Assembly (NCBI RefSeq): GCF_028714775.1
Contig: NZ_JAQTLS010000019.1
Location: forward strand, 1-64,000
Reading direction: 5' to 3'
Length of the DNA: 64,000 nt
Origin: Thiothrix sp.
GTDB lineage: Bacteria > Pseudomonadota > Gammaproteobacteria > Thiotrichales > Thiotrichaceae
Made by a program: the position numbers and the translations under genes. Shown here piece after piece: positions 327-16,785 of the stretch. Each line of letters starts with the position of its first letter. Within the stretch, counting starts at the first letter, position 1. The notes beneath the pieces were generated by a model. The model was given only the letters and a program-made list of their open reading frames with translations. It had not been told where the DNA came from and did no database searches.

Positions 327-1070
327 CTCCTCGCACCCACATGATTCTTGATCTTGCTGGTATTCGTGCAAAACGGCGATCTTTTGCCAGATTTTCCGTG
401 ACAAGTCATTGGTGAGGGATTCCACATCATTCACTGCATCATACAGCACCGAGTCGTTGAAATTTTGCGCGTAATAAGCTGCCAATTTGCCAATAAGCGA
501 GAGCATCTCGCTGCAATAATCCAAATAACGGATCAGCGCAAACGCATCCAAGTTGCGTGATGGGGAAGAGGCGGTGCGTTCCGCCCGATTGAGGATGTAA
601 CTGGGGTCTTTGGTCAACTGGTGCATATCCACCACATGTGCGATAGCCCGCAACTCATGGATGGCAGCCAACGCACGGCTACGTTTGAAACGCTGTTCAT
701 AGGTAATCAGGAACAGTACCCACAGACCCAGCAGAAAAGTGCCGCTCATCACCGCTTCCACCGCTTGCAGAAAATTGCCCGCATCACCTGCTGGATTAGA
801 CAGCAACGCCATCAACGGCCCGTATGTGAAAATTAGCGGAACACCCAACACCCCCAACACGGAAACAAGCGCCAACAAACGTAAACCAAGATTCGGGCGG
901 GCAATCCAACACGCTTTGGCCTTAAGGGTATCGACCATACTGCTCAATTCTTGGCATACCCCAAGCAAATTAGCATCGGGGAAACGCTCCCGGATACGTT
1001 GGCACAAGCACTGGTTGGTTTGCTTGATACGGTCAACCTCCAAGCGCCGATAATAGGAAAATTGCGTCAC
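315..1070 (-). CDS. two-TM membrane protein of unknown function, last gene of the pyk-like/phoU operon
   Basis: The 251-residue protein has two hydrophobic segments, about residues 61-83 and 105-124, separated by a short loop. They are flanked by a Cys-containing N-terminal domain (about 1-55) and a mostly helical C-terminal domain (about 130-251) ending in a Cys-Gly-Cys motif. The start is GTG at 1070, overlapping the phoU stop by four bases (GTGA), so the two genes are probably translationally coupled. I do not recognise the family. Its operon with phoU and a pyruvate kinase-like gene, divergent from pstS, suggests a role linked to phosphate or energy status; that is inference from position only. 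Confidence 0.75.
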   Translation of the reverse strand: MTQFSYYRRLEVDRIKQTNQCLCQRIRERFPDANLLGVCQELSSMVDTLKAKACWIARPNLGLRLLALVSVLGVLGVPLIFTYGPLMALLSNPAGDAGNFLQAVEAVMSGTFLLGLWVLFLITYEQRFKRSRALAAIHELRAIAHVVDMHQLTKDPSYILNRAERTASSPSRNLDAFALIRYLDYCSEMLSLIGKLAAYYAQNFNDSVLYDAVNDVESLTNDLSRKIWQKIAVLHEYQQDQESCGCEEVSP

Positions 1071-1768
1071 ACTTTGACTCCGAACTTGGTATGGCGCACA
1101 TCCCTACCTTCCACCAGATAAACCACGTATTCACATAAATTTTTGGCGTGGTCGCCTATCCGCTCCAAAGAACGGGCATGACGCATGGTATTGAAACCAT
1201 GCCGGATATTGCGTGAGTCTTCGGTCATGTGCAAAAACAAGCAACGGGACAGGCGCTCAAACTCTTGGTCAACTGCCAAGTCACTGAGTGACACAACTTT
1301 GGCTTGTTCAACGTCCAGACGTTCAAATGCATCCAATGCATCACCCAACATGGTTTGGACTTGTTCCCCCAATTGGCGGAATTCAGTATCCAGTTCCCCC
1401 TCAAAAGTTCCTTTGCCAGATTTCCTAGAAAGGCCAACCACATGCCTAGCCATTTTCCCGGCTTCATCCCCAATCCGTTCCAAATCCGTGACAATCTTGA
1501 TCGCAACAATCAAAAAACGTAAATCGCTAGCAACAGGCTGGCGGCACGCAATGACATCCACACACAAGCTGTCTAACGAAACCTCCAGCGCATTGACCTT
1601 CTGATCCAATACCAACACCTCGGCAGCGTGCTTATGGTTTTGTGTCATCAGCGCATGAAGCGCGTAGGCCACTTGCGTCTCGACCAAACGCCCCATCAAG
1701 ATCAGTTTTCCCTTGAGGGTTGCCAACTCGTTGCTGTAACCCTGAGAGGTGTGCGTGTTTATTTCCAT
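1067..1768 (-). CDS. phoU: PhoU family phosphate-signalling regulator (first copy)
   Basis: The protein has about 233 residues, the usual PhoU length, and two copies of the three-helix PhoU repeat. Each carries the metal-binding signature, DLERIGDEA in the first half and SLERIGDHAKN in the second. PhoU links the Pst transporter to the PhoR sensor and restrains the Pho response when phosphate is ample. The start at 1768 (Met-Glu-Ile-Asn) matches the N-terminus of the second PhoU in this window and has GAAGGG upstream. An alternative ATG at 1822 overlaps the pyk-like stop (ATGA) and would add 18 residues. It is paralogous to the gene at 9562-10293 but sits in a different, minus-strand operon. 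Confidence 0.9.
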   Translation of the reverse strand: MEINTHTSQGYSNELATLKGKLILMGRLVETQVAYALHALMTQNHKHAAEVLVLDQKVNALEVSLDSLCVDVIACRQPVASDLRFLIVAIKIVTDLERIGDEAGKMARHVVGLSRKSGKGTFEGELDTEFRQLGEQVQTMLGDALDAFERLDVEQAKVVSLSDLAVDQEFERLSRCLFLHMTEDSRNIRHGFNTMRHARSLERIGDHAKNLCEYVVYLVEGRDVRHTKFGVKV

Positions 1769-14595: not shown

Positions 14596-15498
14596 TTACA
14601 CGGCGTATTCCGCCACCATGCGGTGCTCATTCCCCGGCAGCACTTCCACCACATCGTGTGCGGCATTAGTGGTTTCGACGCACAGCAGGCGCAGGTAATC
14701 ATCGTCCTGCAAGTCCGCCATTTCCGCCGCGATTTTCGCCCACGGGTTCCACACCACCGCCGTATTGCTGCCACTTGAAGTAATGCGGATAGTGCGCCCC
14801 AATGCTGCGTCAACAATGTTCAATTCCGCCGGGGCGCTGGTGTAAATACGGTCAACTTCCGCATCAATTGTCACCGCGCCCACTTGCTGCTTGAGCGCAC
14901 CGTTTGCCCCTGCCGCTTTGTCGATGTATTGCGTGCCTTCCAACCCCGTGACTTGGGTTTGGGTAATATCGCCCACGGCAAAATAGGTGTGCAGCGCTTG
15001 CGTGATGGAAAAAGCCTGATCGCCCGTATTGCGCGTCACCAAGGCCAAGCGCAAGGTTTTGCCCACGGTGATTTCCAGCGCCAGTTTGAAAGCGTAAGGC
15101 CAGATCGCCTGCGTTTCGGGAGTATCCACCAAGCCCAGCGTTACTTGCGTTTCACCCGCAGCCGTAGTCGCCGTGCCCCATACTGACCACAGCCGGTTGC
15201 GCACGAAACCGTGTGCCGGACGCCCCAAGCCTTGTGGGTCAGCCCCAAACCAAGGCCAGCAAATTGGCACGCCGCCCTTGATGGCTTTACCCGCTTGGTA
15301 ATAAGCCTTGTCACTGAGGAACAAAACATCAGCTGGAGCGCTCTGCGGTTGGAACGACAATACCTGCCCCGCGTAAACGGAAATCACCGCGCTGGCATGA
15401 GCATTATTGATATTGATGAACGGCAAGCCACCTTTCCCTTCAACGAAGGTCAACTGGTCGGCAATCGCGTAATCGGCATTTAACTGTGCAATGGTCAT
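14596..15498 (-). CDS. D-hexose-6-phosphate mutarotase (YeaD-like)
   Basis: The 300-residue aldose-1-epimerase-fold protein shows the YeaD-type landmarks: GGVPICWPWFG (about 75-85), GRPAHGFVR with His96, ALHTYFAVGD near the middle, DAEVDRIY, and VVWNPW near residue 250. It interconverts anomers of glucose 6-phosphate and related hexose 6-phosphates in the cytoplasm. A TATAAT-type promoter lies upstream on the same strand and GAGAAG precedes the start. Confidence 0.88.
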   Translation of the reverse strand: MTIAQLNADYAIADQLTFVEGKGGLPFININNAHASAVISVYAGQVLSFQPQSAPADVLFLSDKAYYQAGKAIKGGVPICWPWFGADPQGLGRPAHGFVRNRLWSVWGTATTAAGETQVTLGLVDTPETQAIWPYAFKLALEITVGKTLRLALVTRNTGDQAFSITQALHTYFAVGDITQTQVTGLEGTQYIDKAAGANGALKQQVGAVTIDAEVDRIYTSAPAELNIVDAALGRTIRITSSGSNTAVVWNPWAKIAAEMADLQDDDYLRLLCVETTNAAHDVVEVLPGNEHRMVAEYAV

Positions 15499-15535: not shown

Positions 15536-15564
15536 ATTATACCGTAAACACAAACAGGAAGGAA
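15536..15564 (-). promoter_or_regulatory. promoter of the mutarotase gene
   Basis: On the minus strand a perfect TATAAT lies at 15541-15536, with a weak TTTCCT-type -35 about 18 bases further upstream. It is 38 bases from the mutarotase start. Confidence 0.5.
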
Positions 15565-15775
15565 AAAATGGGACACCCACAGCATGGAACAGAGGTGGAG
15601 GAGGAGGAGATGCCTCGTCCATCACTGTGGGTGCTTGCAAATGATCCTAGCTAGGAGGAGAGGAGGAGGAGAGATCGGATCACCCGTCTATTGCAATGCA
15701 GCAAATAGTAGGAATTCCGGCGCAAACGCACAAGCTACAATTTCTCAACTCACAGGTTAGGAAAGCTAACCATTA
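15545..15775 (+). ncRNA. candidate GGA-rich structured RNA (CsrB/RsmZ-like architecture)
   Basis: The plus strand holds about 15 GGA triplets in roughly 160 bases. They cluster inside two hairpins. CACCCACAG (15574-15582) pairs with CTGTGGGTG (15625-15633) around a loop with four tandem GGA. TGATCC (15642-15647) pairs with GGATCA (15677-15682) around a loop with five GGA. A third stem, CTATTGC with GCAAATAG, follows near 15688. GGTTAG/CTAACC at 15755-15771 with a weak T-rich tail could end the transcript. CsrA/RsmA proteins bind GGA in loops, and sequestering RNAs carry many such loops. A plus-strand promoter is only weakly visible (TTGAGT at 15512, AATTAT at 15535). A simple GGA-repeat expansion is the alternative. 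Confidence 0.35.
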
Positions 15776-16726
15776 GTTATTTTGCAACGCGGCCTCTTCT
15801 TGCAACCATGCCACAAACGCGCCGACCGCCCGCTGGTTGCCTTCCTGCTGCTGCGGACGCACCACGTAATAAGCGTTTTCCAGCGGCATCCCCAATTCAA
15901 AGGGAATACAAAGCCTGCCCGCTTCAATATCGCACTGCGCTAGACGCCTGATGCTCAGTAACACGCCCTGCCCATCTATTGCCGCCTCCATCGCCAGCGA
16001 GACATGGTTGAAATGCAAACCCCGATTGGCATTAACCCCCTCGATCCCGTGCAACTCCAACCAACGCCGCCAGCTTGGATGCCCCACATAATCCGTGTCG
16101 TCGTGCAATAAGGTATGAAATTTCAGGTCTTGCGGCTGCTTTAGCGGATGCGGGTGAGCATCGCTAACCAAGGCAGGGCTGCACAACGGCATGGCAGAAA
16201 CCGCAAACAATTTTTCCACCCGGCAACCGGAATAATGCCCCGCGCCGAAACGGATCATGACATCGACGGCACGAGAGCGGAAAAACGCTTCCATAGACGT
16301 GCTTTCCGAAACCGCATCCGAATCCACCATGCCCGCATCACCACTGATTTTCATATCAATTTCGGGATGCCTACGGGAAAAACGGTGCAAACGCGGAACC
16401 AGCCATTTGGAAGCAAAAGAAGGTGCTACCCGCAATGTAATGCTATCGGTTTGGCCTTCGCCGCGCATCAGATGCACCGCCTGCGCCAGATGGTCAAACC
16501 CCGTGCGCAATTTAGGCAAGGCTGCCTCGGCCTTTTTGCTCAAAATAATCGTGCGGTTTTTGCGTTCAATCAAAGAAAAGCCAAGATAATCCTCCAGATA
16601 TTTAATCTGGTGGCTGATCGCGGCGCGAGTGACATTCAGTTCTGCGGCAGCCTTGGTAAAACTCCGATGGCGGGCAACAGCTTCAAACGCACGCAAGGCA
16701 TTAAGGGGGGGCAATTGTTGTGACAT
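15773..16726 (-). CDS. LysR family regulator, GcvA-like
   Basis: The 317-residue protein has an N-terminal winged helix-turn-helix (about residues 5-64; LRAFEAVARHRSFTKAA then TRAAISHQIKYLED) and a LysR substrate-binding domain (about 92-305) of the GcvA type. ATG 16726 gives the usual seven-residue lead to the DNA-binding domain; the frame is open 13 codons further upstream. The target genes are unknown. No divergently transcribed neighbour is present; the gene upstream runs in the same direction. Confidence 0.88.
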   Translation of the reverse strand: MSQQLPPLNALRAFEAVARHRSFTKAAAELNVTRAAISHQIKYLEDYLGFSLIERKNRTIILSKKAEAALPKLRTGFDHLAQAVHLMRGEGQTDSITLRVAPSFASKWLVPRLHRFSRRHPEIDMKISGDAGMVDSDAVSESTSMEAFFRSRAVDVMIRFGAGHYSGCRVEKLFAVSAMPLCSPALVSDAHPHPLKQPQDLKFHTLLHDDTDYVGHPSWRRWLELHGIEGVNANRGLHFNHVSLAMEAAIDGQGVLLSIRRLAQCDIEAGRLCIPFELGMPLENAYYVVRPQQQEGNQRAVGAFVAWLQEEAALQNN

Positions 16727-16758
16727 AGCGCAATTATGCCTTGAGTCACTGTGAAAGC

Positions 16759-16785
16759 AAACCACCGGATAAAATCCAGTGGTTT
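16759..16785 (-). terminator. hairpin between the small membrane protein gene and the LysR gene
   Basis: AAACCACCGGAT and ATCCAGTGGTTT form a 12-base stem with one mismatch and a three-base loop. Read on the minus strand it lies 22 bases after the membrane protein gene but has only a short T-rich tail. On the plus strand it is followed by a run of A. Confidence 0.45.

Follow-up and report, generated by a model that had tools for sequence, protein, structure and literature searches.

A trans-acting small RNA with anti-Shine-Dalgarno loops is, in our reading, encoded on the minus strand of an intergenic region of Thiothrix sp., within the window analysed here (the whole stretch of DNA, 64 kb long); this riboregulator would be activated by GcvA and possibly repressed by PhaR, wired like GcvB and pairing like AbcR. 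We assign to this reading a probability of roughly 0.78. The region is flanked by an aldose-1-epimerase (mutarotase) gene (14596-15498) and by a LysR regulator gene of the gcvA type (15773..16765), both on the minus strand. The element is conserved and structured, it displays a strand preference and a fixed promoter geometry, it co-occurs with gcvA in Thiothrix, and its upstream box is shared with DUF1127 genes. In the model that we infer, GcvA from the neighbouring gene would bind a T-N11-A box near -65 and activate the promoter, and a PhaR-type repressor may occupy a palindrome lying over the start site. The transcript, of about 140 nt, would fold into two hairpins, the second of which would be its own intrinsic terminator; the single-stranded CUCCUCC repeats of both hairpins would pair, probably with the assistance of Hfq, with GGAGGAG Shine-Dalgarno sequences, and the translation of metabolic mRNAs would be blocked.

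The predicted RNA (15560..15701, minus strand, ~140 nt) is delineated by a covariance model, a DNA search for orthologs, a sequence-based alignment (A1) and covariation. Its 5' end would fall at about 15698, as judged from the -10 hexamer, and its 3' end at about 15560-15567, within a T-rich tail. The covariance model R1, which was built from 15 sequences including the window's own, matches the locus (G000:C19:15560-15701:-) at 114.5 bits. Hairpin 1 (15638..15686, minus strand) is composed of a stem pairing 15677-15686 with 15638-15647 and of a loop of CUCC repeats at 15648-15676. Hairpin 2 (15573..15634, minus strand), the putative terminator stem, carries its CUCC loop at 15596-15612 and is followed by the T-run. 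The T-rich tail (15560..15572, minus strand) is a predicted intrinsic terminator, with a terminator-like site at 15580-15568 containing TTTTTCCTTC, and the last 14 nt hold 5 to 11 T across the 15 orthologs. In the window's sequence the CUCCUCC cores are predicted to be unpaired, with a mean probability of 0.86 in hairpin 1 and 0.96 in hairpin 2, and the same prediction is obtained for both loops of 15/15 orthologs (mean probability 0.80-1.00), among which the number of cores varies from 1 to 7 in one loop and from 2 to 4 in the other. Reading of all 15 sequences shows that the single-stranded loops are CU-rich, without a G/U-rich seed of the GcvB kind. The linker between the hairpins, UUGCAAGC (15633-15640 in the window, and its counterparts in the orthologs), is nearly invariant; it may pair with the 5' end of the RNA or serve as a second seed.

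Two perfect stems that had been noticed in the sequence-only reading (15574-15582 with 15625-15633, and 15642-15647 with 15677-15682) are indeed present, and the comparison for compensatory changes proposed there gives a positive answer, as both stems covary across orthologs. Changes on both sides are observed in six of the nine consensus pairs of hairpin 1 and in nine of the 11 outer pairs of hairpin 2; over alignment A1, 96.9% of the cells are paired and two-sided changes occur in 15 of 24 pairs. Shuffles give a covariation score of 0.22, compared with 0.42 for the alignment, and 0/500 of them are as high on score, pairing or two-sided changes, counts that are not to be taken as probabilities because the sequences are related and kinship can inflate covariation counts. 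When the structure is slid along the alignment, pairing drops to 30-56%. The number of further pair types is unexceptional (150/500 shuffles as high), and helix 1 (UUGC with GCAA) presents no two-sided change among the 15 orthologs.

The small RNA is present in 15 of the 16 Thiothrix genomes searched and, in a diverged form, in the sister genus g5. In a DNA search of 57 genomes, 14 of the 16 belonging to Thiothrix, the window's own among them, have matches with E < 1e-5, and the fifteenth ortholog (G013) was identified from weak hits and by visual reading of its sequence. The covariance model recovers its 15 source sequences, by construction; it gives no match in the Thiothrix genome G008, and it scores in seven of the nine g5 genomes, with E from 1.5e-6 to 0.0033. 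One of the g5 loci (L056) displays the same box and promoter, two CTCCTCC hairpins and a T6 terminator; two CTCCTCC stretches are also read in L055 and L057, one in L054, L058 and L061, and a tandem pair in L060. In this last locus (genome G080, ~1450-1850) two candidate CUCC hairpin small RNAs stand in tandem. In both, CTTG is immediately followed by a TGCTGCA-N2-GCAGCA palindrome, and a DUF1127 gene located further on has CTCCTCC ahead of its terminator. In genera g2 and g4 a CTCCTCC stretch is located just before a terminator-like hairpin, downstream of gcvA, in 5/5 genomes having gcvA at 1e-80, and these stretches are preceded by a similar box and promoter. Seven gcvA-bearing genomes of g7 and g3 give no match to the covariance model, and CTCCTCC is absent from the three gcvA loci of these genera that were scanned (L086, L087, L091). 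One match in g7 (L059, genome G076, E 1.6e-4) was discarded; CUCC is absent from its sequence, and model E-values near 1e-4 can therefore be false. Of the six named contigs that the promoter pattern matches, five bear Thiothrix in their title and the sixth 'Gammaproteobacteria bacterium'. Contigs of T. caldifontis, T. lacustris and T. fructosivorans have the element.

Upstream of the predicted RNA, the minus strand carries a -10 hexamer TACTAT (15705..15710) and, across a 17-nt spacer, a -35 hexamer TTGTGC (15728..15733), preceded by a predicted GcvA (LysR-type) box, TTAG-N5-CTAA or T-N11-A, at 15757..15769, which starts 59 nt before the -10 and is centred at about -65. This arrangement is kept in 15/15 Thiothrix orthologs, where, counted from the start of the box, TTGT lies at +36 and a TA-rich hexamer at +59; in three of them the box reads TAAG instead of TTAG. 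The hairpin GGTTAG-N5-CTAACC (15755-15771) was previously taken for a possible end hairpin of a plus-strand RNA, and a simple scan also scores it as terminator-like on that strand; the hairpin is real, and its position and conservation make it look like an operator upstream of the minus-strand promoter. E. coli gcvB resembles the Thiothrix locus in having a candidate T-N11-A stretch, TTAGTTTTTTTAA, 59 nt before the -10 TATAGT and centred at -65 from the annotated start, with a -35 at +36, where both the choice of this stretch and the -35 are our own reading. The published GcvA consensus, as it appears in an excerpt of its source (PMC3658693), is T-N11-A with CTAAT, whereas the Thiothrix box has CTAAC.

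The regulator gene is the upstream neighbour of the small RNA on the same strand. Its product is GcvA according to NCBIfam NF008352 (317.1 bits, cut-off 288), of the two genomic matches to E. coli GcvA it is the better one, with 43% identity, and its top PDB chain is GcvA 8y6u. The gcvA gene adjoins the small RNA in 12 of the 15 Thiothrix loci; in G001, G005 and G009 it is located elsewhere and the box and the RNA are still together. Within Thiothrix, gcvA occurs in the same 15 genomes as the small RNA, G008 alone being without both. The g5 RNAs are not beside gcvA, and this genus contains exceptions to the co-occurrence: G079 has the RNA and the box without a gcvA match at 1e-80, and G030 and G077 have gcvA without a match to the RNA.

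A second putative control is suggested by TGCAATGCAGCA (15692..15703), a predicted PhaR box that overlaps the predicted start site and is the only exact match in the window to the PhaR consensus TGCRNYGCASMA, given here after an excerpt of PMC6201568. The PhaR-type box is exact in nine of the 15 orthologs and has at most one mismatch in 13, against a background of 0.6% per 24 nt for such matches in random stretches of the window, although these are not 15 independent events because the orthologs are related. It is lost in G004 and G013. Among the 24 sister or DUF1127 promoters read, a PhaR-like box with at most one mismatch is found in eight (background 2.7% per 70 nt) and is absent from 16. 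A relationship between this palindrome and the Brucella VtlR motif, CAATGCAGCCATGCA, was considered.

The LysR-type box also precedes genes of the DUF1127 family. The pattern CTAACC-N5-GTTGA-N10-CTTGT was searched with at most two mismatches in 63 genomes, and an independent search for DUF1127 gives 73 matches in 37 of them; when the two sets are compared by hand, the box pattern (at most two mismatches) is located 118-150 nt upstream of at least 11 of the 73 DUF1127 matches, on the same strand (G011, G018, G019, G024, G064, G074, G075, G076, G077, G081, G083). Four more DUF1127 genes have the box at 3-4 mismatches. All three DUF1127 genes found in Thiothrix (G007, G011, G015) carry it, two of them at three mismatches, and those of G080 and G082 carry it at four; two DUF1127 genes in L171 (G030) have no box within four mismatches. 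Downstream of gcvA in G018 and G024 (L153, L154), a predicted CUCC transcript and a DUF1127 gene that has CTCCTCC ahead of its terminator stand one after the other, and each of the two is preceded by the same LysR-box promoter. Two further matches at two mismatches, L164 (G063) and L165 (G064), closely resemble the promoters of the small RNA and of DUF1127; a script scan of the fetched loci finds neither DUF1127 nor CUCC beside them.

Candidate targets were searched as AGGAGGAG-N2-9-ATG. The window's own genome contains 20 such sites, the small RNA locus itself being one of them, against 8 for the reversed control, and seven more genomes contain 158 against 45. From the sites listed in these seven genomes 80 were fetched, leaving out the seven sites of G001, and 80 of the resulting 100 sites (80 fetched and 20 own) give an ORF of at least 50 aa. 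Recurrent candidates among the sampled sites are prpE-like genes (five genomes), a regulator-like protein (five), prpC-like genes (two) and glnA-like genes (two); prpE and prpC were named after the top NCBIfam hits of partial sequences, which in both cases stay below the cut-off, and the other names were given by eye. The regulator-like protein, SQRR...SSWQRS, has AGGAGGAG as its Shine-Dalgarno sequence at L178, L244, L257, L288 and L295, that is, in five sampled genomes, which makes its gene a candidate conserved target. The prpE gene keeps a GGAGGAG Shine-Dalgarno in all 15 genomes read (G004 left out), including G008, which has no small RNA, so that conservation of a target is not diagnostic; a strong Shine-Dalgarno may simply mark highly expressed genes. 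The target search is thus suggestive only. The genome encodes Hfq. GGAGGAG Shine-Dalgarno sequences recur on the same Thiothrix genes (prpE-, prpC-, glnA-like and others). Repression of translation by anti-Shine-Dalgarno pairing appears to be the likeliest mode of action, by analogy with AbcR and NmsR.

The minus-strand RNA could instead act mainly as a sponge for other RNAs, or bind a protein, through its CU-rich loops. The varying number of CUCCUCC repeats is what a sponge might show, and the promoter type is shared with DUF1127 genes, one of whose proteins is described in an excerpt of PMC10253847 as binding RNA and acting on the CcsR RNAs. On the other hand, the CUCCUCCC loops of AbcR1/2 act on ribosome-binding sites according to a mutational test in S. 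meliloti (PMC8844928, in part), and no DUF1127 match was obtained in the genome of the window; we regard a sponge or protein-binding function as unlikely, though by no means negligible.

The sequence-only reading had placed the RNA on the plus strand, as a CsrB/RsmZ-like molecule whose GGA loops would sequester CsrA. Several observations agree with it. It counted about 15 plus-strand GGA triplets; in 15545-15775 there are 16, a maximum reached by 3 of 11,596 segments of 231 nt (mean 3.1) taken every 11 bases on both strands of the 64 kb. The folding that it proposed to run favours the plus strand over 200/200 dinucleotide shuffles (z -3.82), and the plus fold is the more stable one in the window's own sequence, as well as in L014. 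Moreover, csrA is present in the genome, so absence of the gene does not speak against a CsrA route.

The minus strand, which had been ignored, is also well folded (z -2.93; 2/200 shuffles at least equal), and its fold is the more stable in 13 of the 15 orthologs. Wobble pairs favour this strand: the minus-derived structure contains 27 G-U against 2 A-C cells (two helix-end pairs account for 19 of the 27, the remainder being 8 G-U against 2 A-C), whereas the plus-derived structure contains 2 G-U against 8 A-C. Mean identity is 63% over the 70 nt that precede the minus RNA (54% in a diverged subset of nine), but 31% over the 70 nt past the terminator, the expected place of a plus promoter (28% in the same subset; all values ungapped). 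On the minus strand the last stem runs into a T-rich tail, and the conserved parts outside the hairpins, namely the LysR-type box, the -35, the -10 and the T-rich tail, are all read on minus. A strict sigma-70 consensus scan returns 0 promoters at the locus and plain hexamer scores fail to separate the strands; weak consensus scores could be expected of an activator-dependent promoter. The GGA triplets are arranged as long GGAGGAGG tandems, which also argues against a CsrB-like RNA. The Rfam comparison with CsrB and RsmX/Y/Z turns up nothing in the window or in the 15 loci: the gathering scan of the whole window returns only two tRNAs, and a scan of the 15 loci up to E 5 returns three unrelated sub-threshold matches, with no CsrB/Rsm, GcvB or AbcR-type family among them. 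From the sequence comparisons, the transcribed strand is most likely minus, in which case the RNA would expose CUCCUCC, an anti-Shine-Dalgarno motif, and not GGA. A structured small-RNA gene with trinucleotide repeats in its hairpin loops was therefore rightly recognised from the letters, and the strand assigned to it, and with the strand the CsrA sponge, is most likely wrong; a CsrB/RsmZ-like function is in our opinion very improbable.

A cis-acting element, which would serve the mutarotase gene as 5' leader or attenuator or would simply terminate lysR, is suggested by the mutarotase gene that starts downstream on the same strand (15498). This explanation is hardly credible: in none of the 14 other Thiothrix loci does the mutarotase protein have a match within ~1.5 kb of the element, lysR is not adjacent in three loci where box, promoter and RNA remain, and a T-tract terminator closes the predicted RNA. 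Of the 15 Thiothrix loci compared, only that of the window has a mutarotase gene beside the small RNA, and in several of the others a convergent gene end faces the small RNA, as read by eye. Functionless slippage of a GGA/TCC simple repeat can be practically dismissed, as the repeat number does differ among orthologs, yet the flanking stems covary (the sequence-only reading was correct in holding that slippage could not explain them), both loops keep a CUCCUCC core in 15/15 and the promoter geometry is fixed.

The anti-Shine-Dalgarno RNA proposed here can be compared with several known systems. It is like GcvB of E. coli and other enterobacteria in having its gene beside gcvA and, putatively, a GcvA-family regulator. 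The body of the Thiothrix RNA is unrelated, with CU-rich loops in contrast to the G/U-rich stretch of E. coli gcvB, and the small RNA gene is placed in tandem with gcvA and not divergently.

AbcR1 and AbcR2 of the Rhizobiales belong to the family named alpha-r15 and, together with LsrB/VtlR, offer a second likeness: a small RNA near a LysR-type gene, with an anti-Shine-Dalgarno motif in a hairpin loop. According to excerpts of three papers (PMC8844928, PMC7486931, PMC12595884), AbcR1/2 adjoin the gene of a LysR-type regulator by which one of them is activated, and carry CUCCUCCC in the loop of a 5' hairpin; through these loops they pair with mRNAs at ribosome-binding sites and repress them (PMC8844928, in part). 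The same excerpts give conflicting accounts of a control of abcR by LsrB in S. meliloti (PMC8844928, PMC7486931, PMC12595884), and a passage of PMC11975290 describes LsrB as unique to Rhizobiales. VtlR is also described as an activator of genes for small DUF1127 proteins (excerpts of PMC7486931 and PMC12595884). The published VtlR box is different, GCAT-N3-TG-N3-T. By analogy, the combination of a LysR regulator, an anti-Shine-Dalgarno small RNA and DUF1127 seems to parallel VtlR of Rhizobiales.

The CcsR1-4 small RNAs of Rhodobacter carry a CCUCC motif. They are associated with the DUF1127 gene of the CcaF1 locus (PMC10253847, in part), a situation similar to the CUCC motif near a DUF1127 gene in G018 and G024. 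The CcsR RNAs depend on an RpoHI/RpoHII promoter and on processing from one operon, unlike the LysR-box promoters of the Thiothrix-type loci. NmsRA and NmsRB of Neisseria share with our RNA the presence of two anti-Shine-Dalgarno motifs per molecule; an excerpt of PMC5362039 reports their predicted pairing with the prpB, prpC, gltA and sucC leaders and their regulation of central-metabolism mRNAs via anti-Shine-Dalgarno motifs, and prpC- and prpE-like genes carry GGAGGAG Shine-Dalgarno sequences here. That excerpt mentions no LysR neighbour (PMC5362039), and the Thiothrix RNA matches no Rfam family. Finally, MmgR (alpha-r8) of S. meliloti is like the Thiothrix RNA in having a PhaR-type palindrome in its promoter, and is described in parts of PMC12542648 and PMC8401924 as repressed by AniA/PhaR and tied to PHB storage; it differs in its length of 77 nt and in its positive control by NtrC, and the Thiothrix RNA has no Rfam match.

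Putting these comparisons together, we tentatively propose, as a possibility that we rate below even odds, that Thiothrix presents a third and independent solution: a gcvB-type GcvA promoter driving an unrelated anti-Shine-Dalgarno RNA, with the same box on DUF1127 genes, would form a VtlR-AbcR-like module provided with a PhaR box, which would integrate amino-acid (GcvA) and carbon-storage (PhaR) signals and shut down acyl-CoA and nitrogen enzymes (prpE, prpC, glnA). If so, a gcvB-type arrangement of regulator and promoter would have been retained with a wholly different RNA body and pairing chemistry, and the wiring would either be inherited from a common ancestor, with another RNA put in place of the original one, or have evolved twice. 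It would also add a small-RNA family in Thiothrix; no paper on a Thiothrix small RNA is among the literature matches listed, which cover open-licence papers. The box shared with DUF1127 links three literatures, those of GcvA/GcvB, VtlR/AbcR/DUF1127 and PhaR/MmgR, and no open-licence paper containing both GcvA and DUF1127 was found. The predictions (start site, activator, repressor and loop seeds) are specific and could be tested in few experiments.

A separate observation concerns a weak second match to the covariance model in G002 (L062), which is not the ortholog and corresponds to the terminator of a phasin-like gene (1019-1577, reverse strand; named by eye). Close to its start this gene carries two exact PhaR-type boxes, and the loop of its terminator hairpin is CCTCTCCTCCTCCTCTC; the terminator could possibly represent a 3'-UTR anti-Shine-Dalgarno small RNA tied to PHB granules.
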